From Euzebya pacifica (GTDB taxonomy: Bacteria > Actinomycetota > Nitriliruptoria > Euzebyales > Euzebyaceae), in contig NZ_CP031165.1 of assembly GCF_003344865.1 (NCBI RefSeq), positions 4,779,910-4,843,909 of the forward strand: a stretch of DNA of 64,000 nucleotides, in the 5' to 3' direction. The notes under the pieces were generated by a model. It was not told the DNA's origin. It did not search any database and saw only the letters and a list, made by a program, of their open reading frames with translations. Both the position numbers and the translations under genes were made by a program. Below are positions 5,718 to 28,088 of this stretch, piece after piece (positions within the stretch are counted from its first letter, which is position 1; the number at the start of each line of letters is the position of its first letter).

Positions 5718-5773
5718 CGGGATGCCGGCATCGGTGGTGGTGGCTGGGCGTTAATCGGTCACTGCGTCCCCTT
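5718..5773 (-). other. Disrupted catalase 5' end: ribosome site, GTG and early TAA
   Basis: Reading the reverse strand: AAGGGG (5773-5768), five bases, GTG ACC GAT TAA (5762-5751), then in-frame codons for [11 protein letters not shown] leading into the catalase body. A change of one base (CAA to TAA, or any sense codon differing by one base) explains the arrangement. Sequence quality should be checked before calling it a mutation. Confidence 0.65.
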
Positions 5774-5907
5774 GGTCTTTCGGCGGGATCGGCCCGGTCG
5801 GGCGAGATACCCCAACCCTGCACCGATCACCCAGGGAACAAACACCCTCGATGCGGCCACCGAGGATGCGCGAGCCGACCCTTCTCTCGTCGGCGACGCC
5901 GGGGGCG

Positions 5908-6696: not shown

Positions 6697-6750
6697 GGGT
6701 CCTTGCCCTCCTGATCGGGCGGCCGGAATCGCTCCCCGAACCGCGCACTT

Positions 6751-6764
6751 ACCAAACATTCGGT
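6751..6764. promoter_or_regulatory. Operator-like palindrome ACCAAACATTCGGT
   Basis: A 14-bp quasi-palindrome of form ACCRAAYRTTYGGT in the divergent SDR/P450 promoter region. Related copies lie at 46817-46830 and 59021-59034, each in a catabolic promoter region. Size and symmetry fit a TetR-type operator; the cognate regulator is unknown. Confidence 0.5.
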
Positions 6765-6849
6765 TGAACCTACCACCGTGTCGGGTCTAGGTTCATCAAT
6801 ACCCCGCAAAGAGGGTCACGCAGCCGCGCCTTCACGAGGAGCCGAACCA

Positions 6850-8079: not shown

Positions 8080-8123
8080 CCGCACTCTCGACCCCCTCTC
8101 CCGACACCCCCGGAGCCATCGAC

Positions 8124-8669
8124 ATGACCACTGACCTGGAGACCCGCATCCGCAGGCTGGAGGACCGGCAGGCGCTGTCGGACCTCGTCGCCACGTACGG
8201 ACGGGTCGTCGACGACCGTGACCTGGATGCCCTCCGCGGGCTGTTCACCGAGGACGCCGTGTTCGAGTCCACCGTCGGGCCGGTGACCGGCCGCGACGAG
8301 GTCGTCGACCACTACATCGAGCGGATGCGGATGTTCGACGCCAGCTTCCACATCCCGCACAGCCAGACCGTGGAGTTCACCTCCGACGACACCGCCAGCG
8401 GCATCGTCACCGCCCACGCCGAGCTCGGCATGCCCGACGGATCGTTCTGGGTGGCCCTGCGCTACCACGACCGCTATCGCCGGACCGATGACGGGTGGCG
8501 CTTCCACGAACGGCGGGTCCGTCAGCTGTACGCCATGCCGCTGGCCGAGCTGGCCGACGGGCTGTCGGAGGGGATGCGCAAGCGCTGGCCCAACACGCCG
8601 CGGGCCGAGGCCGAGCTGCCCGAGGCGCTGGACACGTGGGCCGCGTGGACCGCAGGATCCACGTCCTGA
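8124..8669 (+). CDS. SnoaL/NTF2-like protein
   Basis: A 181-residue protein with the SnoaL-like (NTF2 fold) pattern: an N-terminal helix with LVATYGRVVDDRDLDALRGLFTEDAVFES, then strands ending in DGWRFHERRVRQLYAMPLAEL. Members bind small hydrophobic molecules and act as cyclases, dehydratases, isomerases or ring-hydroxylating dioxygenase beta-type subunits. The ATG at 8124 is preceded by GGAG about eight bases upstream. It lies directly after the P450 and 20 bases before the two-domain unknown gene. Three NTF2-fold genes occur in the window (also 42599 and 48790), all beside catabolic enzymes. Exact activity is unknown. Confidence 0.8.
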   Translation: MTTDLETRIRRLEDRQALSDLVATYGRVVDDRDLDALRGLFTEDAVFESTVGPVTGRDEVVDHYIERMRMFDASFHIPHSQTVEFTSDDTASGIVTAHAELGMPDGSFWVALRYHDRYRRTDDGWRFHERRVRQLYAMPLAELADGLSEGMRKRWPNTPRAEAELPEALDTWAAWTAGSTS

Positions 8670-8689
8670 GAACCAACGACCCCGGGCCC

Positions 8690-9526
8690 GTGCCCGACCA
8701 GCAGACCGTCGTCCACACCTCACCTCGTGGGCGTGTGGTGGCGTGCGACTCGGCCTACCACGTGGCCGCGGCGAACCGGGACCGCGACGTCGTCTGCAAC
8801 GCCTCCTACTCCGGGGTGCTGCCCGCCCGGTTCATCGCCTCGCACCGCCCGCGCGGGGCGATAGGGATGGACTGCGGCATCGGCATGGACGGCGCCGGCA
8901 TCGCAGGCCTGTGGTACCTGGAGGCGCTGGACATCCCCGGGGCGGCGGTCGACGTGATGACCGTCGAGCTCGGCAACGGCGTGGACCTGTTCGACCGGGC
9001 GGTCATCTCGCGGCTGAACGAACCGGCCCGGCGGTGCGGGGTCCGCGAGGGCATGCCCGCGCGTGAGGCGGCGCTGCTGATGCTCGAGCACGACCCGGGC
9101 AGCGTCGACGCGCCGTCGGCCATCACCAACCGGACGGTGGTGCACACCGCAGCCGATGGCCGGCAGGTCGTGTGCACGGACTCGATCGCCTTCGGGGAGG
9201 AGGAGGACCGGGGACGCAACGTCCTGTGCACCGCCGGTCACACCGGCCGTTCGGCGGTGCCCTACCTTCGCGACGTCGCGCCGCACGGGTTCATCTGCTC
9301 GGACGGCGGCTGGGGTCGCGACGGCTCCGGCACGGCGGGCCTGGCGATCGTCGAGGCCGACGGCCTGGCCGGTGCCACCGTGGACGCCCGCACCGCCCGC
9401 ATGGGCGACGGCCTGTCCACCTGGGCCGACGGCACGATCAGCGCCGCCAACAGCCTGGCCGTCGCCCGCGGGGTCGCCGTGGGCATGTCGGCCCGCGAGG
9501 CGGCGGTGCGGCTGCTCGAGGGCTGA
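8690..9526 (+). CDS. Two-domain protein of unknown family (paralogue of 36102-36968)
   Basis: I do not recognise the family. With a GTG start at 8690 it has 278 residues; an in-frame GTG at 8645 is possible and neither has a strong ribosome site. The protein is a tandem duplication. Residues about 5-130 and 145-278 align, sharing a TVVHT beginning, then a core (GVLPARFIASHRPRG / GRSAVPYLRDVAPHG), a glycine-rich loop (DCGIGMDGAGIAGL / DGGWGRDGSGTAGL), AVD/TVD, a GNG or GDG turn, then IS..N and GM.AREAA..LL. No signal peptide or membrane segment is seen. It is next to a CoA ligase (convergent, 9562) and behind a P450; its paralogue is translationally coupled to a DUF35/CoA-ligase operon. Confidence 0.75.
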   Translation: MPDQQTVVHTSPRGRVVACDSAYHVAAANRDRDVVCNASYSGVLPARFIASHRPRGAIGMDCGIGMDGAGIAGLWYLEALDIPGAAVDVMTVELGNGVDLFDRAVISRLNEPARRCGVREGMPAREAALLMLEHDPGSVDAPSAITNRTVVHTAADGRQVVCTDSIAFGEEEDRGRNVLCTAGHTGRSAVPYLRDVAPHGFICSDGGWGRDGSGTAGLAIVEADGLAGATVDARTARMGDGLSTWADGTISAANSLAVARGVAVGMSAREAAVRLLEG

Positions 9527-9561
9527 GCAGCGTCGGGGCTGTCCCGGCGCCGGTCGGGCGG

Positions 9562-11208
9562 TCAGGCGGGTTGGCGGGTGCGGTCGGCGGTGTCGGGGGT
9601 GACGCCGTCTGTGCGGAGCTCGCGCTTGCGGATCTTGCCCGACGGGGTCATCGGCAGGGCGTCGACGACGCGGACGTAGCGGGGGATGGCGAAGTCGGGC
9701 ACGCGGTCGGCTGCCCACGCCCACACGGTGTCGGCGTCGATGGTGGCGCCGGGGCTCGCCACGACGACGGCCATGACCTCGTCCTCCCCCGCCTCGTGAT
9801 CGGCGGGGACGGCGATGACGGCGCACTCGGCGATGTCGGGGTGGGCCAGCAGGGGTGACTCGACCTCGTAGGAGGAGATGTTCTCGCCCCGCCGGCGCAG
9901 CGCGTCCTTCAGCCGGTCCACGAAGTAGAACCAGCCGTCGTCGTCGCGCCGCAGCCCGTCTCCGGTGTGGAACCACAGGTTGCGGAAGGCCTCGACGGTC
10001 TTCTCCGGCATGGCGTAGTAACCCAGCGTCGTGATCCACGGTGCCCTGGGCCGGACGACCAGCTCGCCCACCTCACCGACCGGGACCTCCTCGTCGGTCT
10101 CGGGGTCGACCAGCCGGATGTCGAACCACTCGGCGTTGGCCAGCCCAGCCGCTCCCGCCGGCCGGTCCACGCCGTAGGGCGTCATGATCGGCATGGAGGT
10201 CTCGGTCAGCCCGAAGACCTCCACGAACGCCTCGACGCCGAACCGGTCCCTGAACGCGTCGACGTAGCTGGCGGTCGGGGCGGCGAAGATGCAGCGAAGG
10301 TCGTTGTCGGCGTCGTCCTCCCTCGCCGGCTGCTTCCACACGAAGTCCATCATCACGCCGACGAAGTTGGTGACGGTCGCGCGGGCGTCGCGGATCCGGT
10401 CGGTCCAGCGGGTGGCGGAGAAGCGGGTGTGCAGCACGAACCGGGCCCCGGCGATCAGCGCTGGGTAGGCCGCGAGGAACTGGGCGTTGCCGTGGAACAG
10501 CGGCCCCATCACGAGGTAGGTGTCCTCGTCGGTCAGGCGGGTCAGGCTGACGCACTCGTCGGCGAAGAAGTACATGTGGGCGTTGGCCATCACGACCCCC
10601 TTGGAGGGGCCGGTGGTGCCGCTCGTGAAGAGGATGCCGACGGGGTCGCTGGCGGCGGGGTCGGGCAGGTCGGTGCGGGCCTCGTCGGCGGCCAGGGCGG
10701 CCCATGGCTCGGCGTCCCAGCCGGCAGCGCGGAGCGTCTCGCACGCCGTCGCGGCTTCCTCCGGGTCGCCGAGCACGGCGAAGCGACGGATGCTGCTGGC
10801 GGCCTCGGGGATGGCGACGAACCGGGCGGCGAACCCGGCGTCGATGACCGCGACGGTTGGCCCGGCGACCCGCACCTGGTGGGCCAGGAAATCCCCCAGG
10901 TAGGAGGTGTTGATCGGCACCTCGACCATGCCGGCCATCGCCGCGCCGAACCACGACAGGACGTAGGCGGCGGAGTTGCCGGCCATGATGAGCACCCGGT
11001 CGCCCACCTCGGCGACGTCGAGCAGACCGGTGGCGATGCGGGCCGCGCGGTCGTGGACCTCGGCGTAGGTCAGCGCCACCCCTTCCTCCGGGCAGTCGAG
11101 GTAGATGCGGTCGCCGTGCGTCTCGGCGCGGGCACGCAGGACGCGCGGCAGCGTCCACTCCCCCCGGTCGGTGAACGTGGGGACCATCTCGTCGTAGACC
11201 GCGGTCAC
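9562..11208 (-). CDS. ATP-dependent acyl-CoA synthetase (AMP-binding, class I adenylate-forming)
   Basis: A 548-residue enzyme that activates a carboxylic acid to its CoA thioester via an acyl-adenylate. The phosphate-binding loop is ILFTSGTTGPSKGV (about residues 198-211), the A5 motif is GLTET, the A7 region is WFHTGDGL, and the C-terminal catalytic lysine lies in PSGKIRKREL. It resembles the CaiC-like branch. The GTG at 11208 overlaps the stop of the preceding enoyl-CoA hydratase (GTGA), so both are coupled. The acid substrate is not evident, but the pairing with a BadI/MenB-like hydratase suggests a cyclic or branched acid. Confidence 0.9.
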   Translation of the reverse strand: MTAVYDEMVPTFTDRGEWTLPRVLRARAETHGDRIYLDCPEEGVALTYAEVHDRAARIATGLLDVAEVGDRVLIMAGNSAAYVLSWFGAAMAGMVEVPINTSYLGDFLAHQVRVAGPTVAVIDAGFAARFVAIPEAASSIRRFAVLGDPEEAATACETLRAAGWDAEPWAALAADEARTDLPDPAASDPVGILFTSGTTGPSKGVVMANAHMYFFADECVSLTRLTDEDTYLVMGPLFHGNAQFLAAYPALIAGARFVLHTRFSATRWTDRIRDARATVTNFVGVMMDFVWKQPAREDDADNDLRCIFAAPTASYVDAFRDRFGVEAFVEVFGLTETSMPIMTPYGVDRPAGAAGLANAEWFDIRLVDPETDEEVPVGEVGELVVRPRAPWITTLGYYAMPEKTVEAFRNLWFHTGDGLRRDDDGWFYFVDRLKDALRRRGENISSYEVESPLLAHPDIAECAVIAVPADHEAGEDEVMAVVVASPGATIDADTVWAWAADRVPDFAIPRYVRVVDALPMTPSGKIRKRELRTDGVTPDTADRTRQPA

Positions 11209-11987
11209 GAGCTGGAGCCCTTCGGCTCACGGCCGGGCCACTGGGGTCGGCGCTTCTGCATGAAGGCGCTGGCACCCTCGACCATGTCGTCGCTGCCGAT
11301 GGCCTGCACGAGCATGCCGAGGCCCTGGAGCATGTTGTCGCGGGAGGCGTTCCACCACAGGTTGCTGCTTACCTTGGCGATCTCCAGGTAGCGGGGGCTG
11401 TTGGCCAGCAGGTCGTCGGCCCAGCGGGTGACGGCGTCCTCCAGCTCGTCGTGGGGGACGACCTCGTTGACCCAACCCCACTCCGCGGCGGTGGCCGCGT
11501 CGTAGCGACGGCAGAGGAAGCTGACCTCCTTGGCGCGCTTCTCACCGATCTGGGCGGCCAGCAGGTTGGTGCCACCGAGCACCGGGGCGCTGCCGACCTT
11601 GGGGCCGGTCTGCCCGAAGGTGGCCCGGTCCGAGGCGATCGCCAGGTCGCAGGCGACGACGAGCTCGTTGCCGCCGCCGGCCGCCGCACCGTTGACGGCG
11701 GCGATGACCGGGAGAGGCGAGTTGCGGATCTCGTCGGTGAACCGCAGCGAGTTGTAGAACATCCCCCGCAGCTCGGCGGGGTCGGGGTCCTGCAGGTTGG
11801 CGAGGAAGCCGCCGGCGCAGAACGCCTTGTCCGTGCCGGTGATGACGATCACGCCGGCATCGGCTGCGTCACGGATGGCGTGGATCAGCTCGTCGGCCAT
11901 CGCCTGGTCGTAGGCGTTCATCCGGTCGGCCCGGTTCAGCCTGATCCAGGCCACCTCGCCCCGCCGCTCGCTGACCACGTCCGTCAT
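11205..11987 (-). CDS. Enoyl-CoA hydratase/isomerase family (BadI/MenB-like)
   Basis: A 260-residue crotonase-fold enzyme. The oxyanion-hole segments are KAFCAGGFLA and NGAAAGGGNELVVACDLA. The central part (GPKVGSAPVLGGTNLLAAQIG, then AKEVSFLCRRYDAATAAEWGWVNEVVP) resembles naphthoate synthase and 2-ketocyclohexane-carboxyl-CoA hydrolase more than straight-chain hydratases. This suggests ring cleavage or C-C bond chemistry; that is inference. The ATG at 11987 has AGGA upstream; a longer frame to 12050 would run through the operator-like site at 12039. It is first in an operon with the CoA ligase and divergent from an acyl-CoA dehydrogenase. Confidence 0.85.
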   Translation of the reverse strand: MTDVVSERRGEVAWIRLNRADRMNAYDQAMADELIHAIRDAADAGVIVITGTDKAFCAGGFLANLQDPDPAELRGMFYNSLRFTDEIRNSPLPVIAAVNGAAAGGGNELVVACDLAIASDRATFGQTGPKVGSAPVLGGTNLLAAQIGEKRAKEVSFLCRRYDAATAAEWGWVNEVVPHDELEDAVTRWADDLLANSPRYLEIAKVSSNLWWNASRDNMLQGLGMLVQAIGSDDMVEGASAFMQKRRPQWPGREPKGSSS

Positions 11988-12038
11988 CTGCTGTCCTGTC
12001 TGTGTGTCGTTCGACTCGAGCCTCGGCTCTAGCATACG

Positions 12039-12055
12039 ATTAGTGATCATAAATA
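12039..12055. promoter_or_regulatory. Operator-like site related to TATTCATGAGCATAGAT
   Basis: On the reverse strand this 17-bp AT-rich stretch reads TATTTATGATCACTAAT. It matches the sites at 37018, 39402 and 51243 over most positions and sits midway between two divergent catabolic genes. It is the weakest of the four copies. Confidence 0.4.
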
Positions 12056-12113
12056 GGGTGCCGTGTCGGCGCCAAGCTGCGACGGGCCCATCATGGGTCG
12101 AGGAGCCACGTTG

Positions 12114-13262
12114 ATGGAGTTCGAGCTACCGGAGCGGTACGCCGCGATCCGTGAGGAGGCACGCGGTGTCGCCGCCGGCATCGCGGATGTCGCGGTCGAG
12201 GCCGACGGGCTGAGCGACCGGATCCACCCCGACGTCCTCGCCGCGCTGCGATCCAGCAACCTGACCGAGCTGATGGTGCCGAAGGTCCACGGCGGCCGGT
12301 TCGACGACGTCGACCCGCTGGCGGTGTGCGTGGCCCGCGAGGGGCTGATGGGGACCTCGTCCCACCTCGACTCGTTGTTCGCCCTGCAGGGCATCGGCAG
12401 CTACGCCATCACCCGTGGCGGGTCCGCCGAGCAGCAGGCGCGGTGGCTGCCGGCCGTCGGCCGGGCCGAGGTCCTGGCGGCGCTGGCGCTGACCGAGCCG
12501 GTGGCCGGGTCGGACCTCAAGTCGATGACGACGACGCTGACCGAGACCGCCGACGGACTGGTCGTCAACGGCGAGAAGGCCTTCATCTCCAACGCGGGGC
12601 ACGCCAGCTTCTACACCGTGCTCGCGAAGGAGGGCGAGGGGTTCTCCGTCGTGCTCGTGCCGGCTGACGCCGAGGGGATCACCTTCGGGCCGACCCCGCC
12701 GATCATCGCCCCCCATGTGCTGGGCTCGGTGACGCTGGACCACGTGGTGGTGGATCCGGCCAACCGGCTGGGCGAGCCCGGCCGTGGGTTCGACCTCGTG
12801 CTGTCGACCCTGGCGGTGTTCCGCGTGTCGGTGGCCGGCGCATCGATCGGCCTGGCCGAGGCGGCGCTGCGCGAGGCGACCCGGCACGCCAACGAACGGG
12901 TGCAGTTCGGCCGTCCGCTGGCACGGCTGGGTGCCGTGGCGGCGTTGCTGGCCGACTCGTGGACCGACCTCGAGCAGGCCCGGTTGCTGACCTATCGGTC
13001 GGCGGCCCGGGCCCGGCAGGACCCGTTGTCGGCGCTGCCCCACTCCTCCATGGCCAAGCTGGCCGCATCGGAGGCGGTCGGTCGGATCGTCGACCGGTGT
13101 GTGCAGGTGATGGGCCGCTGGGGGCTGGTGGCCGACTCGGTGGTCGAGCGGGCCTACCGGACGGCGCGGCCCATGCGGGTCTACGAAGGGGCGTCGGAGG
13201 TGCTGCGGCTGGGCATCGCCAAGGCGCTCGGCGACGAGTACCTGGACGAGGTGGAGGCCTGA
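12114..13262 (+). CDS. Acyl-CoA dehydrogenase
   Basis: A 382-residue FAD-dependent acyl-CoA dehydrogenase that introduces a 2,3 double bond. It has the FAD-contact strands (ALALTEPVAGSDLKSM, then VNGEKAFISNAGHAS), ERVQFGRPLARLGAVAALLAD in the C-terminal helical domain and a glutamate in RVYEGASEVLRLGIAKALG at the usual catalytic-base position. The ATG at 12114 has AGGAG at 12101-12105. Its TGA stop shares bases with the ATG of the next SDR (TGATG), so the two are co-translated. Divergence from the hydratase/ligase operon suggests one pathway under a shared operator. Confidence 0.9.
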   Translation: MEFELPERYAAIREEARGVAAGIADVAVEADGLSDRIHPDVLAALRSSNLTELMVPKVHGGRFDDVDPLAVCVAREGLMGTSSHLDSLFALQGIGSYAITRGGSAEQQARWLPAVGRAEVLAALALTEPVAGSDLKSMTTTLTETADGLVVNGEKAFISNAGHASFYTVLAKEGEGFSVVLVPADAEGITFGPTPPIIAPHVLGSVTLDHVVVDPANRLGEPGRGFDLVLSTLAVFRVSVAGASIGLAEAALREATRHANERVQFGRPLARLGAVAALLADSWTDLEQARLLTYRSAARARQDPLSALPHSSMAKLAASEAVGRIVDRCVQVMGRWGLVADSVVERAYRTARPMRVYEGASEVLRLGIAKALGDEYLDEVEA

Positions 13263-14011
13263 TGGACCTGCAGCTGGACGGACAGGTCGCCATCGTCACG
13301 GGGGCCAGCAGGGGGTTGGGGCGCGCGGCAGCGCTGGCCCTCGCCGAGGAGGGGGTGCACGTCGTCGCGGCAGCCCGGTCCGGGGATGCGCTGGCCGAGC
13401 TCGTCGACCACTACCCCGACAGGATGAAAGCGGTCACCTGCGACATGGAGGAGTCCGACGCCGTCGCCGGACTGGTCGACGAGGCGCTGGAAGCCTTCGG
13501 GCGGCTGGACGTCGTGGTCAACAACGCCGGCATCGCCCCGGCGGGCGCGTTCGAGGACCAGGACCCGCGGGAGTGGGAGCGGGTCTTCCGCATCAACGTG
13601 ACCGCACCCGCGGTGCTGTCCCGGGCGGCGGGGCTGGTGATGCTCGAGCAGGGGCACGGCCGGATCATCAACGTGGCGTCGACGTCGGGGCTGAAGGGCA
13701 AGCCGTACCTGGTGTCGTACTCCGCGACGAAGGGCGCGATGCTGCGGATGACCGAGGCGCTGGCGGCGGAGTGGGCCGGCCGGGGCGTGCAGGTCGTCGC
13801 GATCGCCCCGGGCGCGTTCGACACCGACGCCCAGGCCGCGGTCACGGAAGACCCCGAGATGCTGCGCCGCAGGCTGCGCAAGATCCCGGCGGGCCGGATG
13901 GGCCGGGTCGAGGAGTTCGGCCCCCTGGTCTGCTACCTCGCCTCTCCCCTGGCGACGTTCGTGACCGGCGCCACCTTCGTCATCGACGGCGGCGAGGCCC
14001 ACAAGCTCTGA
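13262..14011 (+). CDS. Short-chain dehydrogenase/reductase (SDR)
   Basis: A 249-residue classical SDR: cofactor loop VTGASRGLGRA near residue 13, NNAG in VVVNNAGIAPAG, active Ser in NVASTSG and catalytic Tyr-Lys in YSATKGAM. It probably works as a 3-hydroxyacyl-CoA or alcohol dehydrogenase behind the acyl-CoA dehydrogenase it is coupled to. The start overlaps the upstream stop (TGATG). The last 35 bases and the 49 bases that follow are repeated in diverged form at 16163-16246, beyond an accessory block. Confidence 0.9.
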   Translation: MDLQLDGQVAIVTGASRGLGRAAALALAEEGVHVVAAARSGDALAELVDHYPDRMKAVTCDMEESDAVAGLVDEALEAFGRLDVVVNNAGIAPAGAFEDQDPREWERVFRINVTAPAVLSRAAGLVMLEQGHGRIINVASTSGLKGKPYLVSYSATKGAMLRMTEALAAEWAGRGVQVVAIAPGAFDTDAQAAVTEDPEMLRRRLRKIPAGRMGRVEEFGPLVCYLASPLATFVTGATFVIDGGEAHKL

Positions 14012-14060
14012 CCTGCTCCTGATGGAGTGGGTGTGGTCGCACCTTGCAGCGACAACCGAC
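13977..14060 (+). repeat. 84-bp direct repeat, copy A (SDR 3' end plus downstream hairpin)
   Basis: Covers the final VIDGGEAHKL codons of the SDR and the following 49 bases. It aligns without gaps to 16163-16246. The downstream part contains GTGGTCGC and GCGACAAC separated by eight bases, a hairpin that may act as terminator. Confidence 0.65.
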
Positions 14061-14062
14061 GG

Positions 14063-15379
14063 TCAGTCGTCGAATGTTTGGTTGTCGGCGGGTTCGCCAA
14101 CGGGTTGGCGGGGTGCCGCCTTCGGCTGCCACGCGGTGAGGCTCGACAGAACCTGGTCGTAGAACGCGTTGATGGCGTCTTCGACGGATTCGATGAAGGA
14201 GCTGGCTCTGCCCTTCCCGACCCCGCGACCCGCACCCATGTCGCTGCGAACGGTCAGCGTGAAGGTGGCCGGGTCGCGTTTCTGGTCGTCGATCAGGAGA
14301 TGGGAATCCTCCGCAGCAGCCGCCAACGTGGCGGTGGGCCCGTTCTTGGCCCGGTGCGCTCGCGACTCGATGTGAAGGTCAGCAGGCGCCGTTTCTCGCA
14401 GCTGTCGGGTCAACCATCCGACCCGACCCCGAGCCCCCTTGTCCTCCGGGGCCCTCGTGGTTGCTGTGCAGGCAATCTGGCGAGCCCGGAGGTCGACACA
14501 GATTTCGAGATCACCGGCGGTGTTCGGGATGCGCAGGACCGCATCAAGGGTCCCCCCTTCCACGAGTCGGCGGACGAGGTCGTCTGCGCGGACTCTGGGG
14601 TCCTTGGCATGTGCGCGCGAAAGCTGTTGAGTGACGTCGAGTCCAGTCTGTGCACCCATCATCAGAGCGATGTAGCGAATAAGCTGATCCCACCGCTGGA
14701 CGATGTCCATCACGCCGGCGTCGTTCTTCGTGAGGGTGCCGTCCTTGGCGGCGTTGCGAACGGCGACCCAGCTCCCACCCATGTCGTTGAACGACAGGGC
14801 TCCTGACGCAGAGTGCTGCAGGTACCTGATGAGCTCCTCGAGCAGCCACCGCTGTTCGACGTCGTCCACACCGATGTGCTCGTGCAGCCGAACCGCCGTG
14901 GTGACGAGTTGCGTCCACGAGATGTGGTGGAGTTGCACTGTCGAGTTGGCCCGTGGAACCGCCGCTGACGTGGGGTGGTGACCGGGTGCGGCCGCGATTT
15001 CGTTGGAGACCGTCACGACGCAGTTGAACCTGTTGGCTCGAGCGACCTTGATGTAGCCCAAGAGTTGTTCCGCTTCGAGCGTTGCCGATCCAGTTTTCAC
15101 CTCGACCAGAGCTGTCCAAGTGGTCTTCCCGTAGCTGATCCGAATGAGGCCGTCTGGCCGGACTTTCTTCCCGTCGAGGTCAAAGATCACCTCGGTGAAG
15201 CACTCCACGGTCGCCCGGCCCGCCTTCGACGCCCCCAACGGTCCGAAGAGCTCCGAAGAAAGGGGGCGCACGATGGACAGAACCGCCAGGAGGGCGGACG
15301 TGGCCCGCTCCTCGGCCTCTTTCTCACTGCCGATGCCCTTGACCGGAATCAGCCGCGCCCGCCTCCACTTCTCCGTCAT
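14063..15379 (-). CDS. Orphan PD-(D/E)XK nuclease-like protein
   Basis: A 438-residue protein whose N-terminal third has the layout of a PD-(D/E)XK nuclease fold: RPDGLIRI, a spacer strand, then TALVEVKTGSATLEAEQLLGYIK, giving D...ExK plus a following glutamine. The remainder is helical, with a repeated strand region near residue 300 (GDLEICVDLRARQIACT) and no motif I recognise. Its GC content is visibly lower than in neighbouring genes. It is alone, antisense to its neighbours, inside a block flanked by an 84-bp repeat, which suggests acquisition. It could be a defence or DNA-repair nuclease, but no partner methylase, helicase or toxin-antitoxin gene is beside it. Function unknown. Confidence 0.7.
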   Translation of the reverse strand: MTEKWRRARLIPVKGIGSEKEAEERATSALLAVLSIVRPLSSELFGPLGASKAGRATVECFTEVIFDLDGKKVRPDGLIRISYGKTTWTALVEVKTGSATLEAEQLLGYIKVARANRFNCVVTVSNEIAAAPGHHPTSAAVPRANSTVQLHHISWTQLVTTAVRLHEHIGVDDVEQRWLLEELIRYLQHSASGALSFNDMGGSWVAVRNAAKDGTLTKNDAGVMDIVQRWDQLIRYIALMMGAQTGLDVTQQLSRAHAKDPRVRADDLVRRLVEGGTLDAVLRIPNTAGDLEICVDLRARQIACTATTRAPEDKGARGRVGWLTRQLRETAPADLHIESRAHRAKNGPTATLAAAAEDSHLLIDDQKRDPATFTLTVRSDMGAGRGVGKGRASSFIESVEDAINAFYDQVLSSLTAWQPKAAPRQPVGEPADNQTFDD

Positions 15380-15507
15380 TGCCAGGCTCCCTCATTCGAG
15401 TATGGCAGTGCAGGTTGCCATATGGCACCGGACCCGTGGAGCACCCCCCACAAATGCCTCTGGGCGCTCAGTGCTGGAGAGCCTCGATCTTGTGGTGTCG
15501 GCCGAAC

Positions 15508-15539
15508 CCGTAGCCCATGCATCACCCTCTGGGCTACGG
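15508..15539 (-). terminator. Stem-loop at end of membrane-anchored protein gene
   Basis: Perfect 10-bp stem CCGTAGCCCA / TGGGCTACGG around a 12-base loop. It includes the stop codon region of the gene ending at 15534. No T-run follows, so it may stall transcription or protect the RNA end instead. Confidence 0.45.
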
Positions 15540-16037
15540 CTGGCCGATGCGCGGATTCGGCTGCTGCTCGGAGGCCCATGGCACCTGCAGCACCACAAGG
15601 CTGCGGCGTGCGCCGAGGGGAGGGAGCGCCGGGGCCACCTGATTGGAGACCTCCGACACACATCCCGGACTGGCGACCACCTCGACCGTCTGGCGGACCG
15701 GACTCACGTCGACGACATGCACGTCCTCGATGTCCCTTGCGCCGCAGGTGGGTTCCAGCGGGACGAACAGCGCCATGTGCCCCTTGTCGATGGTCGGTGG
15801 GACACCGGGCATCTGGAACTGTCGCCATACCGCCGCCAGACCCTCACCATCGGCAGCGACGATGATGGCGGCATGACTCGTGTCCCGGGTCGTGGCGTCG
15901 AACGCGACCGTGACCCCGTCCAGTGACCACGGTCCAGCAGCATCGCCCGGCGACCCGGACCCACCCCCGCCGGTCACGGCGAGCGCCACTGCCACGACGA
16001 CCACCAGCACCCCAGCCATCAGCCAGTACCGACCCAT
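15534..16037 (-). CDS. Membrane-anchored extracytoplasmic protein of unknown function
   Basis: A 167-residue protein with one N-terminal membrane segment (WLMAGVLVVVVAVALAV, residues about 5-21) followed by a Gly/Ser linker and a compact domain. The domain has alternating strands and two cysteines (EPTCGARD and SPGCVSE) that could form a disulfide outside the cell. The arrangement faintly recalls PrcB-type domains but I would not assign it. The ATG at 16037 has GGGGG eight bases upstream; the in-frame start at 16085 lacks one. It lies in the accessory block between the two 84-bp repeats. Confidence 0.6.
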   Translation of the reverse strand: MGRYWLMAGVLVVVVAVALAVTGGGGSGSPGDAAGPWSLDGVTVAFDATTRDTSHAAIIVAADGEGLAAVWRQFQMPGVPPTIDKGHMALFVPLEPTCGARDIEDVHVVDVSPVRQTVEVVASPGCVSEVSNQVAPALPPLGARRSLVVLQVPWASEQQPNPRIGQP

Positions 16038-16162
16038 CGACAACCCCCTGCGCACCCAAGCGGGCCATCGGCCCACGCCCCCCACCAGTGTGCCGCAGTG
16101 ATCTTGGTGCGGGTCGGCAGACGGCGGCTACGCGTCGGTTGCCCCTCAGCGTGGGCTGTCGC

Positions 16163-16246
16163 TCGTCATCGACGGCGGCGAGGTCAAGGAACTGAGACCG
16201 ACTCCTGAGGGGTGGGGTTGGGTCGTACCTCCTGGCGACAACCGAG
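16163..16246 (+). pseudogene. 84-bp direct repeat, copy B: remnant of an SDR 3' end
   Basis: Reads LSLVIDGGEVKEL in frame, the usual end of an SDR, but the stop codon is lost (CTG AGA). It aligns without gaps to 13977-14060 through the downstream hairpin region. It marks the far edge of the accessory block. Confidence 0.6.
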
Positions 16247-16258
16247 GCTCGACGTGCG

Positions 16259-16286
16259 GATGGCCGCCCCGGTCGGGGCGGCCATC
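16259..16286. terminator. Strong perfect hairpin
   Basis: GATGGCCGCCCC and GGGGCGGCCATC form a perfect 12-bp stem around a GGTC loop. It lies 17 bases beyond the stop of the cell-wall-binding/lectin gene and is its likely terminator, although no T-run follows. Confidence 0.65.
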
Positions 16287-16302
16287 ACTGGTTGGGCTGG
16301 GA

Positions 16303-18837
16303 TCAGGGGTTGACGGGGCCGGCGTTGGGGCCGCCGTTGGCGGAGCCCCACAGGAACGTGCCACCGGCGGTCTCGCGGACCGTCAGGTTGCCGTCGTCCT
16401 GCATCTCCACCACGCCGCCGGGGCCGTTGCCCGGCGAGGGGAACCCACCGGTGGTGCCGGTGGACCAAGGTCCGCCACCGGAGGCGTCCTCCAGGACCAG
16501 GTTGCCGTCGGTGCGGAACTCCAGGAGCCGCACGCCGCTGCCGCCCGTGCCCGAGTCGTAGCGCACCGCGCCGTTGGTGGTGTCGATCACGACCAGCGCA
16601 CCCGAGGCGCGTACCTCGGCGGCGAACAGGCCGTTGGGGGAGGTCAGCCGACCGGTGATGCCGAGCTGCTCACCGGGCAGCAGCTGGCTGCGGACCGCCA
16701 CCGGTCCTGCTGTGGCCGTTAGCCCGCCGTTCAGCGTCGCGATCGGCTGTCCCTGGATGGAACGGACGACGAGCGAGCCGTTGTCGGTGATCTCCAGCGA
16801 CGCGCTGGTGCTGGACGTGCCGCTGGCCGGCCCGCCCTGGCCGACCGCCTGCTCGAGCACGAAGTTGCCGTCCGGCCGCATCGTGGCGCTGGTGAACCCC
16901 GCGCCGCCAGCCAGCACGGTCTCGGTGCCGCCGCTGATCAGCACTAGCTCGCCGGAACGTCGCAGCACCACGCTGTGGGCCCCGTTGGGCGACACGAGCT
17001 TCTCACCGGGTTCGATGGTGTCACCGGGCCCGAGACCCGAGCCGATGGAGGTCTCACGCTCGGAGAGCGTGAGGCACACGCTGTCGAACACGAACTCGAA
17101 GACGTACTCGCTGACGAACTCCGGCAAGCTGAACGTGAGGGCGATGAAGCGAGAGCCGACGGGCACGGCACCGCCGACCGCACGTTCCTCCATGGCGATC
17201 ACCCCCCGGCTGCTGTTGGTGGATGGGAAGGCACCCGTTGTGCTGCGCCCCAACTCCGCGTCCGCTGGCGACCGGAAGGAGGCGGATGCCACAATGGATA
17301 CAGGGGCACCGAAATCCAGGGAGCCGCCTGTTGCTGCGAGCCGGAAGTTGATGGTGTCGGCATCGATGGCCGCGTCCAGCGACGGGGGGACCGCCAGGAC
17401 CTGGGTCATGGAAGTGCTGTTTCCACCAAAGCTGAACAGGTACTGGCCCCGCTGCAGGGGCCCGTTGTTCTCGTACCGTGCGTCGTAGGTCCGAGCGTCT
17501 CCCGCCCCGGATGGCTGCCCAGTCTGTGGGTCCGGCACTGCGTCGACGCGCCATCCGTCGATCGTCCCGATCTCGGCGTCAGCGTTGACCGCGTGATTGT
17601 TGAGGCAGGTGCCTGGGCCGGTGGTGGGGGACAGGTTTCCGGTGGTGACCTGCGGGCCGGAGCCGCCTCCGGGCGGCGTGCCGATTGGCGTGGGTGTGGC
17701 CGCCCCGATGGTGGTGGCGACCTGGGTGCAGATGGAGGTGACCTGCGAGCAGGTCAGCGTCGGGGGCGTGGTGCCCTGGGCGTAGGTCACACCGGTGTCG
17801 TCAGGACGGGTGTTGTCGAGCCATGCCTGGGTGTCGGCATCGGGCCCGTTGGCACCGACCAGGACGATGGGGGCCCGGGACTGGCCGGAGCGGAGCGCTG
17901 CGGCGAACCCGCTGGCCCAGCCGAACTCCGCGAAGCCGTCGACCACGATGACCCCCGACGCGCTGCCGGCACCGCTGTACCCACGTGCGACAGCGAACTC
18001 CACCGCCGTCTGGGTACGCGACGCCCCTGCGATGCGGATGGTGTCATCGCTGCCGGGCCGCAGCGCATCGAGCTCGGCGAAGACTGCATCGGAGACCGCT
18101 GCGGGGCCGCCGGCGACGTAGACGAGGCTGGGGGCGAGGTCCACCAGGTACTGACGAGTCACGTCGGGCAGGGTGTCGGTGTTGGTCAGCACGATCGGGG
18201 CACCGAGCCCCGCAGCGAAGCCGCCGGCGGCGATGGAGTCAGCGAACCCTGCCGTCGGGTTGTCCGCCGGCCCGCCAGCGCGGGCGATGACGACGATCCG
18301 AGCCTGTGGGAAGAACCGCTCGGCAATCGCGACAGCGGTTTCGTTGCGTCCGGCACCGGACAGCCGCTCCACCGTGACCCCGGCAGCGCGGAGCTGGTCT
18401 ACGGAGGACTCGGGCACCGCTGCGGTGCCACCCAGCACGAACGCGTTGGGCGCGCCGATGCGGGCGATCTCGTCCATGACGGACTGGGGGATCGCGGCGT
18501 TGCTCGGGACCAGCAACAGCGGGGCGTTGGCCGTGTCGATCTGGAACCCGTTCTCCGTCGCGCTGGCCTGACCGGCTGCGGAGGCCAAGGAGTCGGCGAA
18601 CACGTCGTTGCGGCCGATGAGGACCGGCACTCCAGCGCCGTCGGCGACCGTGATCGAGGACAGCTCGATCGAGACCGCCGTGGCCTCGTCGGGGTTGGTC
18701 GGGCTCGTCAGCTGCAACGAATCGCCGTCATCGGGGCCCTGTGCGTCGGCTGGGCCGACGGGCACCGCAAGGAGGAGCGCCGCGAGGAGCAGGAGCACTG
18801 CACCCATCGTCGTCGTCCTGTGGGCATGTGACTGCAT
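16303..18837 (-). CDS. Secreted protein: cell-wall-binding type 2 repeats plus bulb-type lectin repeats
   Basis: An 844-residue exported protein. Residues 1-33 are a signal peptide (hydrophobic run AVLLLLAALLLAVPV, then ADAQ). Residues about 70-345 hold three cell-wall-binding type 2 units (VPVLIGRNDVFADSLASAA, NAFVLGGTAAVPESSVDQL, then LVYVAGGPAAVSDAV). A Thr/Pro/Gly linker follows, then a beta-rich domain (about 410-580). Residues 590-844 contain bulb-lectin-like repeats with QxDxNxVxY-type motifs (MRPDGNFVLEQ, FRTDGNLVLED, MQDDGNLTVRE) and matching LVSPNG / LTSPNG starts. It is probably a surface protein that binds wall polymers and mannose-type glycans. An alternative start at residue 11 has AGGA upstream. 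A TTGACA lies on this strand at 18915-18910. Confidence 0.85.
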   Translation of the reverse strand: MQSHAHRTTTMGAVLLLLAALLLAVPVGPADAQGPDDGDSLQLTSPTNPDEATAVSIELSSITVADGAGVPVLIGRNDVFADSLASAAGQASATENGFQIDTANAPLLLVPSNAAIPQSVMDEIARIGAPNAFVLGGTAAVPESSVDQLRAAGVTVERLSGAGRNETAVAIAERFFPQARIVVIARAGGPADNPTAGFADSIAAGGFAAGLGAPIVLTNTDTLPDVTRQYLVDLAPSLVYVAGGPAAVSDAVFAELDALRPGSDDTIRIAGASRTQTAVEFAVARGYSGAGSASGVIVVDGFAEFGWASGFAAALRSGQSRAPIVLVGANGPDADTQAWLDNTRPDDTGVTYAQGTTPPTLTCSQVTSICTQVATTIGAATPTPIGTPPGGGSGPQVTTGNLSPTTGPGTCLNNHAVNADAEIGTIDGWRVDAVPDPQTGQPSGAGDARTYDARYENNGPLQRGQYLFSFGGNSTSMTQVLAVPPSLDAAIDADTINFRLAATGGSLDFGAPVSIVASASFRSPADAELGRSTTGAFPSTNSSRGVIAMEERAVGGAVPVGSRFIALTFSLPEFVSEYVFEFVFDSVCLTLSERETSIGSGLGPGDTIEPGEKLVSPNGAHSVVLRRSGELVLISGGTETVLAGGAGFTSATMRPDGNFVLEQAVGQGGPASGTSSTSASLEITDNGSLVVRSIQGQPIATLNGGLTATAGPVAVRSQLLPGEQLGITGRLTSPNGLFAAEVRASGALVVIDTTNGAVRYDSGTGGSGVRLLEFRTDGNLVLEDASGGGPWSTGTTGGFPSPGNGPGGVVEMQDDGNLTVRETAGGTFLWGSANGGPNAGPVNP

Positions 18838-18977
18838 GGGGGGTGCTCATTTCGTTCATGGCGGAACGAAGCATGGCTGCCCCACTTCCGACCCGCTGCT
18901 CTCAGTAATGTCAAGAGTACGCAAAGTAATATATGTAGCGAAAGGCCGAACTCGCCGACGTCTCCTTCACGTAACCC

Positions 18978-20549
18978 TCAGCGGACGGGCTGCGCCACCT
19001 CCGTGGACGGCCCCCCGACCGCGTCTCTCCGGGGTGCGGCGAGGAACACGTAGGCGAACAGCACGGCCATGGCGATCACGCCGGCCCACATCGACCGGGA
19101 CCATGCCTCGACGAACGCCAGCTCGGCACTCTCGAGCAGGAGGGTCGCCCGGGCGCCGGCCTGGGCCGCAGCGCCGTGGGCCGCACCGAGCCCCTCGCTG
19201 GCGACCGTGGCCAGGTCGTCCGGGAACCCGACCAGCAGGGGGCCGATCGCGTCCCGGTAGCCGGCGGAGAGCACCGCCCCCAGCAGCGCGACGCCGAGCG
19301 CGCTGCCGAGCTCGCGGGTGGTGTCGTTGAGGGCCGAGGCGACGCCCTGCCGGTCGGCCGGGAGGGACGCGGTGATCGCCTCCGTCGAGGGGGTCATCGT
19401 CAGGCCCATGCCCGCCCCGATCACCAGCATGCCGGGGAGGACGGAGAGGTAGCCGCCGTCGACGGAGACCAGCATCGCCATGGTTGCCAGCCCACCGCCG
19501 GCGATGCCGATGCCGGCCAGGCTGGTGGTGCGGTTCCCGACCGCGGTGGCCAGCTTCGGCGCCAGGCCCGAGGACGCCATCATGAGCAGGCCCATCGGCA
19601 GCAACGCTGCGGTCGAGCGCAGCGCCGACCAGCCGAGCACCCCCTGGAAGTAGGGGAACAGGACGATGAAGACGCCGCCGAGCACGCCGAACAGCACGAT
19701 CAGGGCAACCGAGCCGGTCGCAAGGCGCCGGTCACCGAAGACGCGGACGTCCAGCAGCGGCGCCGGGCTGCGTCGTTCGGTGACGACGAACCCGAGGGTG
19801 GCGAGCAGGCCACCGAGGAGGGCCAGCAGCGTCACGGGGTCGCTCCAGCCGTGGACGGGCCCCTCGTGGATGGCGAAGACCAGGCCGCTGACGGCCACCA
19901 TGGACAGCAACGACCCCTGGAGGTCGAACGGCTGGTCGGTCTGCTCGCGGGAGTTGGGGACCGCCCGGACGGTGGCCACGGCGGCGACGACCGCCAGGGC
20001 GATCGGCAGGACGAACAGCCAGCGCCAGTCGACCAGGTCGACCATCAGGGCCGCCACGAACATCCCGATGAGCCCGCCACCACCGGCGACCCCTGCCCAG
20101 ACGCCGATGGCCTGTGCTCGCTCCTCCTCGGGGAAGGTCGAGGTGATGACCGACAGGGTCACCGGCATGATCATGGCCGCGCTGACGCCGGCGACGACCC
20201 GGACGATGATCATGAACGTCGAGGAGGGGGCGAGCGCGGCCGCGGCGGTGGCCACGACGAACACCGCCAGGCCGGCGAGCAGGACGGGCTTGCGGCCCCA
20301 GCGGTCGCCGATGGCGCCGACGGGCATCAGCATCGCGGCCAGCGCCAGGGCGTAGGCGTTGATGATCCACAGCACGGTGCTCTGGGAGGCACCGAAGTCC
20401 AGCGCAAGCTCCTGCTGGGCGACGTTGAGGCCCGTCACCGAGGCAATCACGGCCATCAGCGCAGCGCAGGAGGCGAACAGGATCTGGCGTTTGCGTCGGT
20501 CGTCGTGAACGAGCGTGTCGGTGTCGCGGGTCGATGGGGTGGATGTCAT
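18978..20549 (-). CDS. MFS transporter, DHA2 (14-TMS) drug/proton antiporter type
   Basis: A 523-residue membrane protein with about 14 hydrophobic segments. It has the DHA2 motifs WIINAYALALAAMLMPVGAIGDRWGRKPV (motif A-like GDRWGRKP) and a proline/glycine-rich motif C-like segment (GVAGGGGLIGMFVAALMVD) in helix 5. These exporters use the proton gradient to expel drugs, dyes or metabolites. The ATG at 20549 follows GGAGG by five bases. It is divergent from an XRE-cupin regulator, which probably controls it. Confidence 0.9.
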   Translation of the reverse strand: MTSTPSTRDTDTLVHDDRRKRQILFASCAALMAVIASVTGLNVAQQELALDFGASQSTVLWIINAYALALAAMLMPVGAIGDRWGRKPVLLAGLAVFVVATAAAALAPSSTFMIIVRVVAGVSAAMIMPVTLSVITSTFPEEERAQAIGVWAGVAGGGGLIGMFVAALMVDLVDWRWLFVLPIALAVVAAVATVRAVPNSREQTDQPFDLQGSLLSMVAVSGLVFAIHEGPVHGWSDPVTLLALLGGLLATLGFVVTERRSPAPLLDVRVFGDRRLATGSVALIVLFGVLGGVFIVLFPYFQGVLGWSALRSTAALLPMGLLMMASSGLAPKLATAVGNRTTSLAGIGIAGGGLATMAMLVSVDGGYLSVLPGMLVIGAGMGLTMTPSTEAITASLPADRQGVASALNDTTRELGSALGVALLGAVLSAGYRDAIGPLLVGFPDDLATVASEGLGAAHGAAAQAGARATLLLESAELAFVEAWSRSMWAGVIAMAVLFAYVFLAAPRRDAVGGPSTEVAQPVR

Positions 20550-20616
20550 CGGAACCTCCGGGTCGTGGTCTGCCTGGAGAGAACGCTAGGTCGAGTTGCT
20601 CGATCGGCACCCTTAC

Positions 20617-20644
20617 TTGCTGATCTGTCAAACCCCTCTAGGAT
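20617..20644 (+). promoter_or_regulatory. Candidate promoter of the XRE-cupin gene
   Basis: TTGCTG (20617-20622), a 16-base spacer and TAGGAT (20639-20644). The -10 ends only eight bases before the ATG at 20653, so the mRNA could be leaderless, which is common in actinobacteria. Confidence 0.4.
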
Positions 20645-20652
20645 GGCAGCGG

Positions 20653-21228
20653 ATGACCAAGGATCTCGACGCCCCGCTGGACGAACGCGTCCGCAACCGG
20701 ATACGACAGCTGCGGACCGAACGGAGCCTGACGCTGCAGCAGGTCGCCGCGGCCGCACACCTGGACGTCTCGACCCTCAGCCGGCTGGAGTCGGGCAAGC
20801 GTCGGCTCGCCATCGACCACCTCCCCGGGTTGGCGGGTGCGCTGGGAGTGACGGTCGACGAGCTGCTGGGGCCGACGGTCCGCCCCGATCCTCGTGTCCA
20901 GCGGGACCCGATCGTCGGGGCCGGCATGACGATGTGGCCGCTGACCCACTACGGGACGGCGACGGGCCTGCAGGCGTTCAGGTGTGTGATCGAGGCCGAG
21001 CGCAGCACTCCGCCCGATCCGTTGCCGGTGCACGAGGGCCGGGACTGGATCTACGTCCTGAGTGGCCGCCTGTGGCTGCTCCTCGGCGAGGACGACCTGA
21101 CGATCGTCCCCGGCGAGGCGGTGGAGTTCAGCACCCTCACCCCGCACTGGTTCGGCACCCACGCCGGCATGGTCGAGATCATCGGGATCTTCGGCTCGCA
21201 CGGCGAACGGGTCCACCTCGACCACTGA
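20653..21228 (+). CDS. XRE-family regulator with C-terminal cupin
   Basis: A 191-residue regulator. Residues about 14-70 form an XRE helix-turn-helix (LTLQQVAAAAHLDVSTLSRLESGKRRL). Residues about 110-190 form a small cupin barrel (GRDWIYVLSGRLWLLLGEDDLTIVPGEAVEF), likely the ligand-sensing part. This two-domain form often represses a neighbouring transporter or catabolic gene. It is divergent from the MFS exporter with 103 bases between starts; a sensor-exporter pair is the simplest reading. The ATG at 20653 is chosen because the preceding -10 leaves no room for an earlier start. Confidence 0.88.
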   Translation: MTKDLDAPLDERVRNRIRQLRTERSLTLQQVAAAAHLDVSTLSRLESGKRRLAIDHLPGLAGALGVTVDELLGPTVRPDPRVQRDPIVGAGMTMWPLTHYGTATGLQAFRCVIEAERSTPPDPLPVHEGRDWIYVLSGRLWLLLGEDDLTIVPGEAVEFSTLTPHWFGTHAGMVEIIGIFGSHGERVHLDH

Positions 21229-25460: not shown

Positions 25461-27968
25461 TCAGCGTCCCGGGGGGATCCACGAGACGTCGGTGATCGTG
25501 TCGCCCTCCACCGGCTCGAGGTGGATCCGCCACGACTCACCGCCATCGAGGACCTCGACCAGCCCGACGCCGCCGACGCCGGGGATGGCGATCTGCCCGT
25601 CCGGCCCCCACTCCGGTGAGGTGAAGGGCCCGGACGCCTCGATGCCGGCGTCGAGCAGGTCGATGACGACAACCTCGGTCAGGTCCAACCGGCTTATCAC
25701 CAGGTCGGCCTCGGCGTCGTCGCCCTGTCCCGTGTAGCGGACGACCGCGAACAGCTCGCCGGCCGGGTCGAACGAGGGTGCGCTGAGCGCATCGGCATCC
25801 GACACGGACGCTGTCCGCTCGGTGGCTCCGGCGGACGCCGTGTCCATCAGGGTCAGCCCTGTCCCGTTGAGGCCGTCGAGGTCGAGCAGTCGCCCGGCCG
25901 GGGACAACGCGGGACGGAACCCGCCTGCCCGCAGCGGAAAGGCCCCGTTGCCGGGGAAGCCCACGGTTCGCTTGTCGCGATCCTCCGTGTCCTGGGCGTT
26001 GTCCCCGGCCCAGTAGACGAACGAGTCACCGTTGGCCGACCAGGCCTGGTCGTTGAGGAAGCCGTAGTTGCCGGTGTCGACCGGGGTGGCCTGCCCGTCG
26101 TCACTGCCGTCGGTGGCGATGGTCGCGACCTGTTCCTCCACCCCGGAGTCGATGAACTCCGACCAGGAGAAGGCGACCGTGCTGCCGTCCGGTGACACGC
26201 TCGGGTTGGTGACCGTGCCGCCGTCCGCACCCTCCCACAGCCGCGTCAGCGCCTCGGCCGGCACGGGACCCGAACCCGTCCCCGGTGGCATGGACAGAAG
26301 GGCTGGCACATCGTCGCCCCGGTCGTCGGTGGCGAGGAGGACGTGATGCAGCGGCGTGGAGTCGATGCGCCACACCGACGCCGGGACGACCCGTTCGACC
26401 GGCGGTGCGGCGACGGTGTCGGTGGTCTCGGAGAACGCGTAGACGCTGGTGTGCCCGTCGGCGACCGTGCCCGAGGCGATCAGCACGCCCGGTGGTGGTC
26501 CGTCACCGAGGATCACCGTGTGGCTGAAGACCACTTCGGACTCCTCGTCGTCGTACGTGACGACCATCTCGCCGTCCTGGACGGACACACATTCCGCGGT
26601 GTGGCTCCGCGCCAGGGACAGTCCGTAGAACTCGCCTCGTTCCGTCTCCCGTCTCGCCGCCTCGTCGGAGCAATCGAACCGCTCACCGTCGGCGCTGGAT
26701 GTCGTGAGGTCGATGTACGGATCATCCACCAACAGCCGGTCGGACACGATGAAGCCGACGTGGCCGCCACGATCCAGCCGATCGGTCAGCGCACCGTCGG
26801 CATCGAGCATCGCGAACGACGCGAGTGCGCCGGACTCGGCCTGCGGCCCGCCACCGAGCAGAATCCTGAGGAGCAACGTGCCCGCGATCAGGCCGGCGAC
26901 CGCACCACCCGCTCCCGGCCCTCCTCCGACGGTCGATGGAGGGATGAGCTGGCGCTGCTGTGGCCGGAAGCGCTCGGCCACCCGGTCCGGGAGGGGGCCC
27001 TGCGAGGGAACCAGCACGATCCGTGCGTCCCTGATGGCGGTCAACGACGCGAGCGGCAGGCCGGTGGCCCAGTCGTCGGCCGCCTCGGCGGTGGCCAGCA
27101 CGGCCGGTCCGACGGCGCCGACCTCGGCGTCCCACGCCTCGGCGATCTCGATCGCGGTCTCGAACCGGCTGTCACCGGCGATCCGCTGGACCTCCAGACC
27201 CAGCGCACCGACCTCCGCCAGGACGTCGTCGCTGATGGCCGCCGTCCCACCGACTGCGACGACCCGTTCGTAGCCGCCGTCGGCGAGCTCGTCGCGGGTC
27301 GCGCCCGACAGGGTGTCGGTGGCCGTGATCAGGATGGGATGTCCGCTGCCGGCCGCCCACGCGCCGGCGGCGACGGAGTCGGCCCAGGCCTGCGTCGGGT
27401 TGTCCGGATCTGCGGGGAAGGCCCGCGCGAGGATCGCGGTCGTGCTGCCGGTGTCGGCTTCGTTGGCGACCGCGACGGCCGTGGCCGTCCGGTCGGCACC
27501 GGAGACCCGCCGGACCGTCAGGCCGGCGTCCGCCAGCGAGTTGGCAACGTCGACCCCGAGCGCCGCCTCGCCCCCGAGGAGCACCGCCGTGGTCGCCCCC
27601 AGCGCGGCGATGCGGTTGAGCACCGAGAGGGGAACCGGCCCGTCGGAGGGCACCAGCAGCAGCGGTGCCTCGCGACCCTGCAGCACCCCAGCCGCGAGGG
27701 AGTCCACGAACACGTCGTCCCGCGCGATGATCACCGTGTCGGCGCGCTCGAACGCCAGCCGGCTGATGGCCAGCGACACCGCGAGCGGGGTGTCCGCCGC
27801 TTCGGGAAGCACGAACACGCCAGGGAGCGTCATCGTGGTCCCGTCCTCCAGGACGACCTCGCCGTCGACGGGTTCGGCCACCACCGGCCCGTTCTCCTGA
27901 GCCGATGCGGGAACCGCCAGCAACGCGGCGACCACCCACACGATCGTCATCGCTGCCGTGCTGCGCAT
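25461..27968 (-). CDS. Cell-wall-binding type 2 repeat protein with C-terminal propeller-like domain
   Basis: An 835-residue secreted protein. Residues 1-24 are a signal peptide (IVWVVAALLAVPASAQ). Residues about 65-320 carry three cell-wall-binding type 2 units (VIIARDDVFVDSLAAGVL, TAVLLGGEAALGVDVANSL, RVVAVGGTAAISDDVLAEV). A hydrophobic stretch (AGGAVAGLIAGTLLLRILL, about 350-370) may be a membrane segment. The C-terminal 300 residues contain repeated NPSVSPDGSTVAFSWSE, APSFDPAGELFAVVRY and SPEWGPDGQIAIPG units like TolB/WD40-type propeller blades. The domain order suggests a wall-attached sensor or scaffold. The in-frame GTG at 28001 is less likely since it lengthens the signal peptide oddly. 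Confidence 0.82.
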   Translation of the reverse strand: MRSTAAMTIVWVVAALLAVPASAQENGPVVAEPVDGEVVLEDGTTMTLPGVFVLPEAADTPLAVSLAISRLAFERADTVIIARDDVFVDSLAAGVLQGREAPLLLVPSDGPVPLSVLNRIAALGATTAVLLGGEAALGVDVANSLADAGLTVRRVSGADRTATAVAVANEADTGSTTAILARAFPADPDNPTQAWADSVAAGAWAAGSGHPILITATDTLSGATRDELADGGYERVVAVGGTAAISDDVLAEVGALGLEVQRIAGDSRFETAIEIAEAWDAEVGAVGPAVLATAEAADDWATGLPLASLTAIRDARIVLVPSQGPLPDRVAERFRPQQRQLIPPSTVGGGPGAGGAVAGLIAGTLLLRILLGGGPQAESGALASFAMLDADGALTDRLDRGGHVGFIVSDRLLVDDPYIDLTTSSADGERFDCSDEAARRETERGEFYGLSLARSHTAECVSVQDGEMVVTYDDEESEVVFSHTVILGDGPPPGVLIASGTVADGHTSVYAFSETTDTVAAPPVERVVPASVWRIDSTPLHHVLLATDDRGDDVPALLSMPPGTGSGPVPAEALTRLWEGADGGTVTNPSVSPDGSTVAFSWSEFIDSGVEEQVATIATDGSDDGQATPVDTGNYGFLNDQAWSANGDSFVYWAGDNAQDTEDRDKRTVGFPGNGAFPLRAGGFRPALSPAGRLLDLDGLNGTGLTLMDTASAGATERTASVSDADALSAPSFDPAGELFAVVRYTGQGDDAEADLVISRLDLTEVVVIDLLDAGIEASGPFTSPEWGPDGQIAIPGVGGVGLVEVLDGGESWRIHLEPVEGDTITDVSWIPPGR

Positions 27969-28088
27969 GAAGTCACCATCTGTAGTTAGGGAACTGCGCA
28001 CCGCACCCTAGAGCATCTGTCACCGGTGATTCAGAGCCTCGTGTACTGACGGCACGAGATCCGGTCTCACCTTGTCGACCGGCGGCTA

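Follow-up and report, generated by a model that had tools for sequence, protein, structure and literature searches.

The gene at positions 16303 to 18837 of the window, i.e., of the 64,000 nucleotides of Euzebya pacifica DNA analysed here, encodes a protein in which three CWB2 repeats are joined to two tandem domains of predicted bulb-lectin (beta-prism II) fold, and all six potential mannose-binding sites of these domains are degenerate. It is reasonably likely that the product is a secreted, Cwp-like CWB2 surface protein with a tandem beta-prism II head, the ligand of which is probably not mannose. The open reading frame and its coordinates hold as first annotated, and its parts are the following:

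16303..18837, minus strand: CWB2 and tandem bulb-lectin-fold protein, 844 aa, ATG start
18739..18837, minus strand: putative Sec-type signal peptide, aa ~1-33, ending ...ADA-Q, without a lipobox Cys (by eye)
17728..18669, minus strand: CWB2 module of three repeats (aa 57-370), PILL-type motifs of the form P-[ILV]3 at aa 106, 214 and 323 (Pfam, own profile, motif scan)
17056..17640, minus strand: middle region, aa 400-594 (from aa ~372), without an assigned family; Cys411 and Cys588 lie close to either end (Pfam, genome search)
16702..17055, minus strand: beta-prism II (bulb-lectin-fold) domain A, aa 595-712 (alignment, AlphaFold, structure comparison)
16306..16701, minus strand: beta-prism II domain B, aa 713-844 (alignment, AlphaFold, structure comparison)

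The signal peptide would send the protein out of the cell. The GC content of the gene (70.4%, with 71-74% in the lectin segments) equals that of the window (70.5%), and there is thus no mark of recent foreign origin. A scan for Sigma-70-type promoters gave no matches, and the defence library PADLOC had no match for the protein or its two downstream neighbours.

The cell-wall-binding repeats that the initial annotation had seen at the N-terminus are confirmed by PF04122, which matches the whole protein in three stretches with 83.7 bits (1.4e-23; cut-off 24.9), and a CWB2 profile of our own also bounds the module at aa 57-370. The PILL-type motifs read PLLL (aa 106), PIVL (aa 214) and PIVL (aa 323), and an extra PVLI at aa 71 also fits the pattern. 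By profile, repeat number and PILL motifs, the protein is a member of the CWB2 (PF04122) surface-protein family. According to the accessible part of a description of the C. difficile Cwps, the PILL motif makes the CWB2 trimer, and the anionic polymer PSII is bound by residues across all three CWB2 domains (PMC5842191). The three repeats of the Euzebya protein would anchor it to an anionic wall polymer without a covalent bond. Like the Cwps, it combines a signal-like N-terminus and three PILL-bearing CWB2 repeats with a different functional domain; however, the same part of that source describes no Cwp with a bulb-lectin partner (PMC5842191).

C. difficile possesses slpA and 28 paralogues, whereas the genome studied here contains at least 110 CWB2 ORFs of up to ~3300 aa (G000, L016-L113; 112 hits less one ORF whose tail is shared and one frameshift partner). 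This is a lower bound, since 150 of 471 candidates were scored, although a few of the ORFs could be fragments of a single gene. All 110 ORFs scanned match PF04122. Among the matches listed, which cover the 25 most frequent families in each third of the ORF set, the partners of CWB2 are peptidases (M14, M28, S8), penicillin amidase, PKD, cadherin-like, RHS and CBM6 domains; this variety fits CWB2 as a general display anchor, and the bulb-lectin fold would be one of these varied partners. CWB2 was found in 31 of 41 nearby genomes, the own genome included, and other genomes of the genus are about as rich in it. CWB2, best known from C. difficile, thus serves in a deep-branching actinobacterial lineage as the shared module of more than 100 ORFs. 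A second CWB2 protein of 846 aa, with a weak match to a PD40 beta-propeller, is encoded in the window itself (25461-28001, minus strand). In the accessible part of a survey of fibrillar adhesins, the anchor models are without CWB2 (PMC8286594), so that proteins like the present one would count as anchorless there.

The middle region, which the initial annotation left without comment and which may serve as a spacer or as an extra domain, gave no Pfam match up to E 10 (aa 386-602 searched) and matches two of 101 genomes, one being its own and the other at E 0.004. A likeness to a jelly-roll carbohydrate module was seen by eye; no family was found for it, and such a module is not claimed.

The bulb-lectin repeats proposed for the C-terminus are borne out as far as the fold is concerned. 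The best NCBIfam match is LLB_putidacin (NF033557; 4.4e-14, 52.5 bits, not reaching the family cut-off of 275), the best phmmer match in the PDB is pyocin L2 (6.4e-7), and Pfam B_lectin (PF01453, cut-off 32.4) scores 26.8 bits on the whole protein and 34.4 bits on the lectin region alone. An actinobacterial bulb-lectin profile built without the present protein gave 107.8 bits on the lectin region, compared to 9.1 bits for the best residue shuffle (2000 shuffles made, 1548 reported). AlphaFold modelled the C-terminal region from a 12-row alignment with a mean pLDDT of 83.1; half A of the model superposes on Marasmius lectin (Z 18.7, 1.5 A, 110 residues) and on the central bulb lectin of Streptomyces UmbA4 (PDB 9oee; Z 17.1, 29% identity), and half B on gastrodianin (Z 17.0). 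The glycines conserved in the beta-prism II fold are kept in the alignment. Each of the two domains is thus modelled as a beta-prism II (bulb-lectin) fold. The best Foldseek match of the two-domain model is pyocin L1 (1.3e-11); the two-domain matches, pyocin L1 and putidacin, superpose with a large rmsd, so that the model does not fix how the two halves are arranged towards each other. A model of the whole protein predicted without an alignment (pLDDT 38.5) was set aside and gives no domain arrangement.

The pairing of the two ends is rare. Among 41 actinobacterial bulb-lectin ORFs, some of which are cut by locus ends and which leave aside at least eight lectin matches without a locus, only the present protein has a CWB2 match. 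The lectin-like bacteriocin profile was found in 28 of 396 genomes of the phylum and in three of 66 genomes of the class (own genome included); the own genome has one copy of the lectin region, and all three other same-genus genomes have none. A comparison with the 1168 ORFs of at least 200 aa in the own-genome CWB2 loci returned the present protein only (next best E 0.33). PF01453 gave nothing in the own genome at 1e-3, which is uninformative, as the control genomes were equally silent. Searching genome contigs with the whole protein yielded one CWB2 protein, from an Erysipelotrichaceae MAG and without a lectin, and tblastn against plasmids yielded ten records, each aligned with the CWB2 part (26-34% identity), and none with domain B alone. 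A search of viral contigs returned four phage-like contigs with bulb lectins that have canonical motifs and a different architecture; by eye, the lectin is joined there to a glycoside-hydrolase-like N-terminus (L175-L178). In the literature collection searched, no paper combined PF04122 with PF01453, and none treated cell wall-binding repeats of Euzebya. The two-ended architecture first proposed is real, no other example of it was found, and it appears to be a new and rare combination of known parts.

Actinobacteria have a known relative in which a bulb lectin and a wall-type module occur together, MSMEG_3662 of M. smegmatis (PDB 4oit), whose beta-prism II lectin domain shares 32-33% identity with domain B across 70-71 residues. 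MSMEG_3662 differs in having LysM (judged from the PDB name 'LysM domain protein' only) in place of CWB2, and its structure was solved with mannose bound, as stated in the accessible part of PMC8875947. Streptomyces UmbA4, the bulb lectin of which is 29% identical to domain A, carries this domain between a trypsin-like domain and a beta-propeller, and its main teichuronic acid sites are located on the propeller in the available part of PMC13274773; UmbA4 was accordingly dropped as evidence for teichuronic acid binding by a degenerate bulb lectin. A UmbA-type N-terminal trypsin-like domain gave no Pfam match up to E 1 in the whole Euzebya protein.

Alignment to canonical relatives located six sites in the lectin region, all on the minus strand:

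16936..16962, minus strand: site A1, RRSGELVLI, keeps Val only
16852..16878, minus strand: site A2, RPDGNFVLE, keeps Asp, Asn and Val
16762..16788, minus strand: site A3, TDNGSLVVR, keeps Val only
16585..16611, minus strand: site B1, RASGALVVI, keeps Val only
16489..16515, minus strand: site B2, RTDGNLVLE, keeps Asp, Asn and Val
16375..16401, minus strand: site B3, QDDGNLTVR, keeps Gln, Asp and Asn, not Val or Tyr

The initial annotation had read QxDxNxVxY lectin motifs here and proposed that the protein holds on to mannose-type glycan. None of the six sites is complete, however: Gln is kept at one of them, Asp and Asn at three each, Val at five and Tyr at none, so that two or more of the five motif positions are lost at each site, and Arg replaces Gln at four sites. 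The failure of the Gln/Asp/Asn/Tyr positions on alignment, which the initial annotation had named as refuting its proposal, is seen at all sites, and mannose binding is not supported for this reason. The protein has the predicted bulb-lectin fold, yet by the motifs it is probably no mannose-binding lectin. Weak hexose binding is conceivable at site B3, where Gln, Asp and Asn are retained. For LlpA, the accessible part of PMC3585409 reports that no mannoside density was seen at a partly conserved site with a Tyr to Gln exchange, and that the needed contacts are missing from a site in which Gln alone is left. An intact QxDxNx[VI]xY site is absent from 22 of the 41 actinobacterial bulb-lectin ORFs, a set that includes the present protein and counts a few ORFs twice. 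Since about half of the examined actinobacterial ORFs with this fold are without any canonical site, a B_lectin match should not be read as mannose binding. Proteins of ~970-990 aa from small-genome actinobacteria (L155 and L157 in G397 and G418) have six bulb-lectin-fold domains and no intact motif.

With every canonical mannose site lost, the most likely partner of the head is something other than mannose. The two tandem domains would form an exposed head, which would contact another glycan or a protein on neighbouring cells, in the matrix or on the own envelope; adhesion to a ligand other than mannose is possible. The degenerate head may also bind nothing. That the tandem region is a structural head or spacer without a sugar ligand is unlikely on balance, although it deserves serious consideration: it would agree with the loss of motif residues at all six sites, with the frequency of such loss among actinobacterial relatives and with UmbA4, in which the ligand sites considered by the authors lie on the beta-propeller, the bulb lectin being a separate central domain (accessible part of PMC13274773), but the conserved glycines of the fold are kept, and the loss of the mannose motif leaves other binding surfaces possible. 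A mannose-binding adhesin or self-aggregation factor is very improbable; the fold, the wall-anchor module and the residues kept at B3 would suit it, but the incomplete sites and the missing tyrosines do not. Least credible is a contact-dependent relative of the lectin-like bacteriocins (LlpA/putidacin L1, pyocin L1) held on the producer's wall: these are the top Foldseek and phmmer matches, LLB_putidacin is the best NCBIfam match and tandem beta-prism II domains are shared, but the score is far under the family cut-off, the bacteriocins are without a CWB2 anchor, which would tether the protein, and in the accessible part of PMC6240691 their motif conservation lies mainly in the C-terminal domain and full LlpA activity needed intact motifs.

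The gene for this candidate Cwp-like surface protein with a head for a probably non-mannose ligand lies on the following segment:

14057..19013, no strand: segment with the gene, not present between the matching flanks in the same-genus genome G002 (flank comparison)

In G002, the matches to window positions 5001-14056 and 19014-21228 (~89% identity) are ~60 bp apart (L197 8178 and 8119), and the CWB2-lectin gene is therefore accessory; ~5 kb including the gene are missing there, and gain here or loss there are both possible. A rather improbable extension of the Cwp-like reading is that the protein acts as a two-ended wall linker encoded on an accessory segment, with CWB2 on the own wall polymer and a reworked beta-prism II pair, in which Arg stands for Gln at four of the six sites, recognising an acidic wall polymer or matrix glycan of neighbouring cells. 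If true, the linker would be a swappable cell-cell recognition protein.

Several further elements were observed around the gene. A 438-aa protein encoded at 14063-15379 (minus strand) has no Pfam or PADLOC match and shows, by eye, a stretch resembling PD-(D/E)XK nucleases. A hairpin-like small element, GTCGYACCTNNNNGCGACAACC, occurs twice in the window (14036-14057 and 16222-16243, plus strand); a longer form of its pattern is found five times in the own genome, nine times in G002 and not at all in five other genomes, and the copies in G002 include the site where the segment is missing. A direct repeat of 88 nt (13977-14064 and 16163-16250, 75% identical) includes what may be left over from the upstream SDR gene's end. 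The region of a small, secreted-looking neighbour gene (15552-16079) is 73% identical to L197 5297-5813 in G002, where the match sits elsewhere, between an XRE-cupin and an enoyl-CoA hydratase gene.
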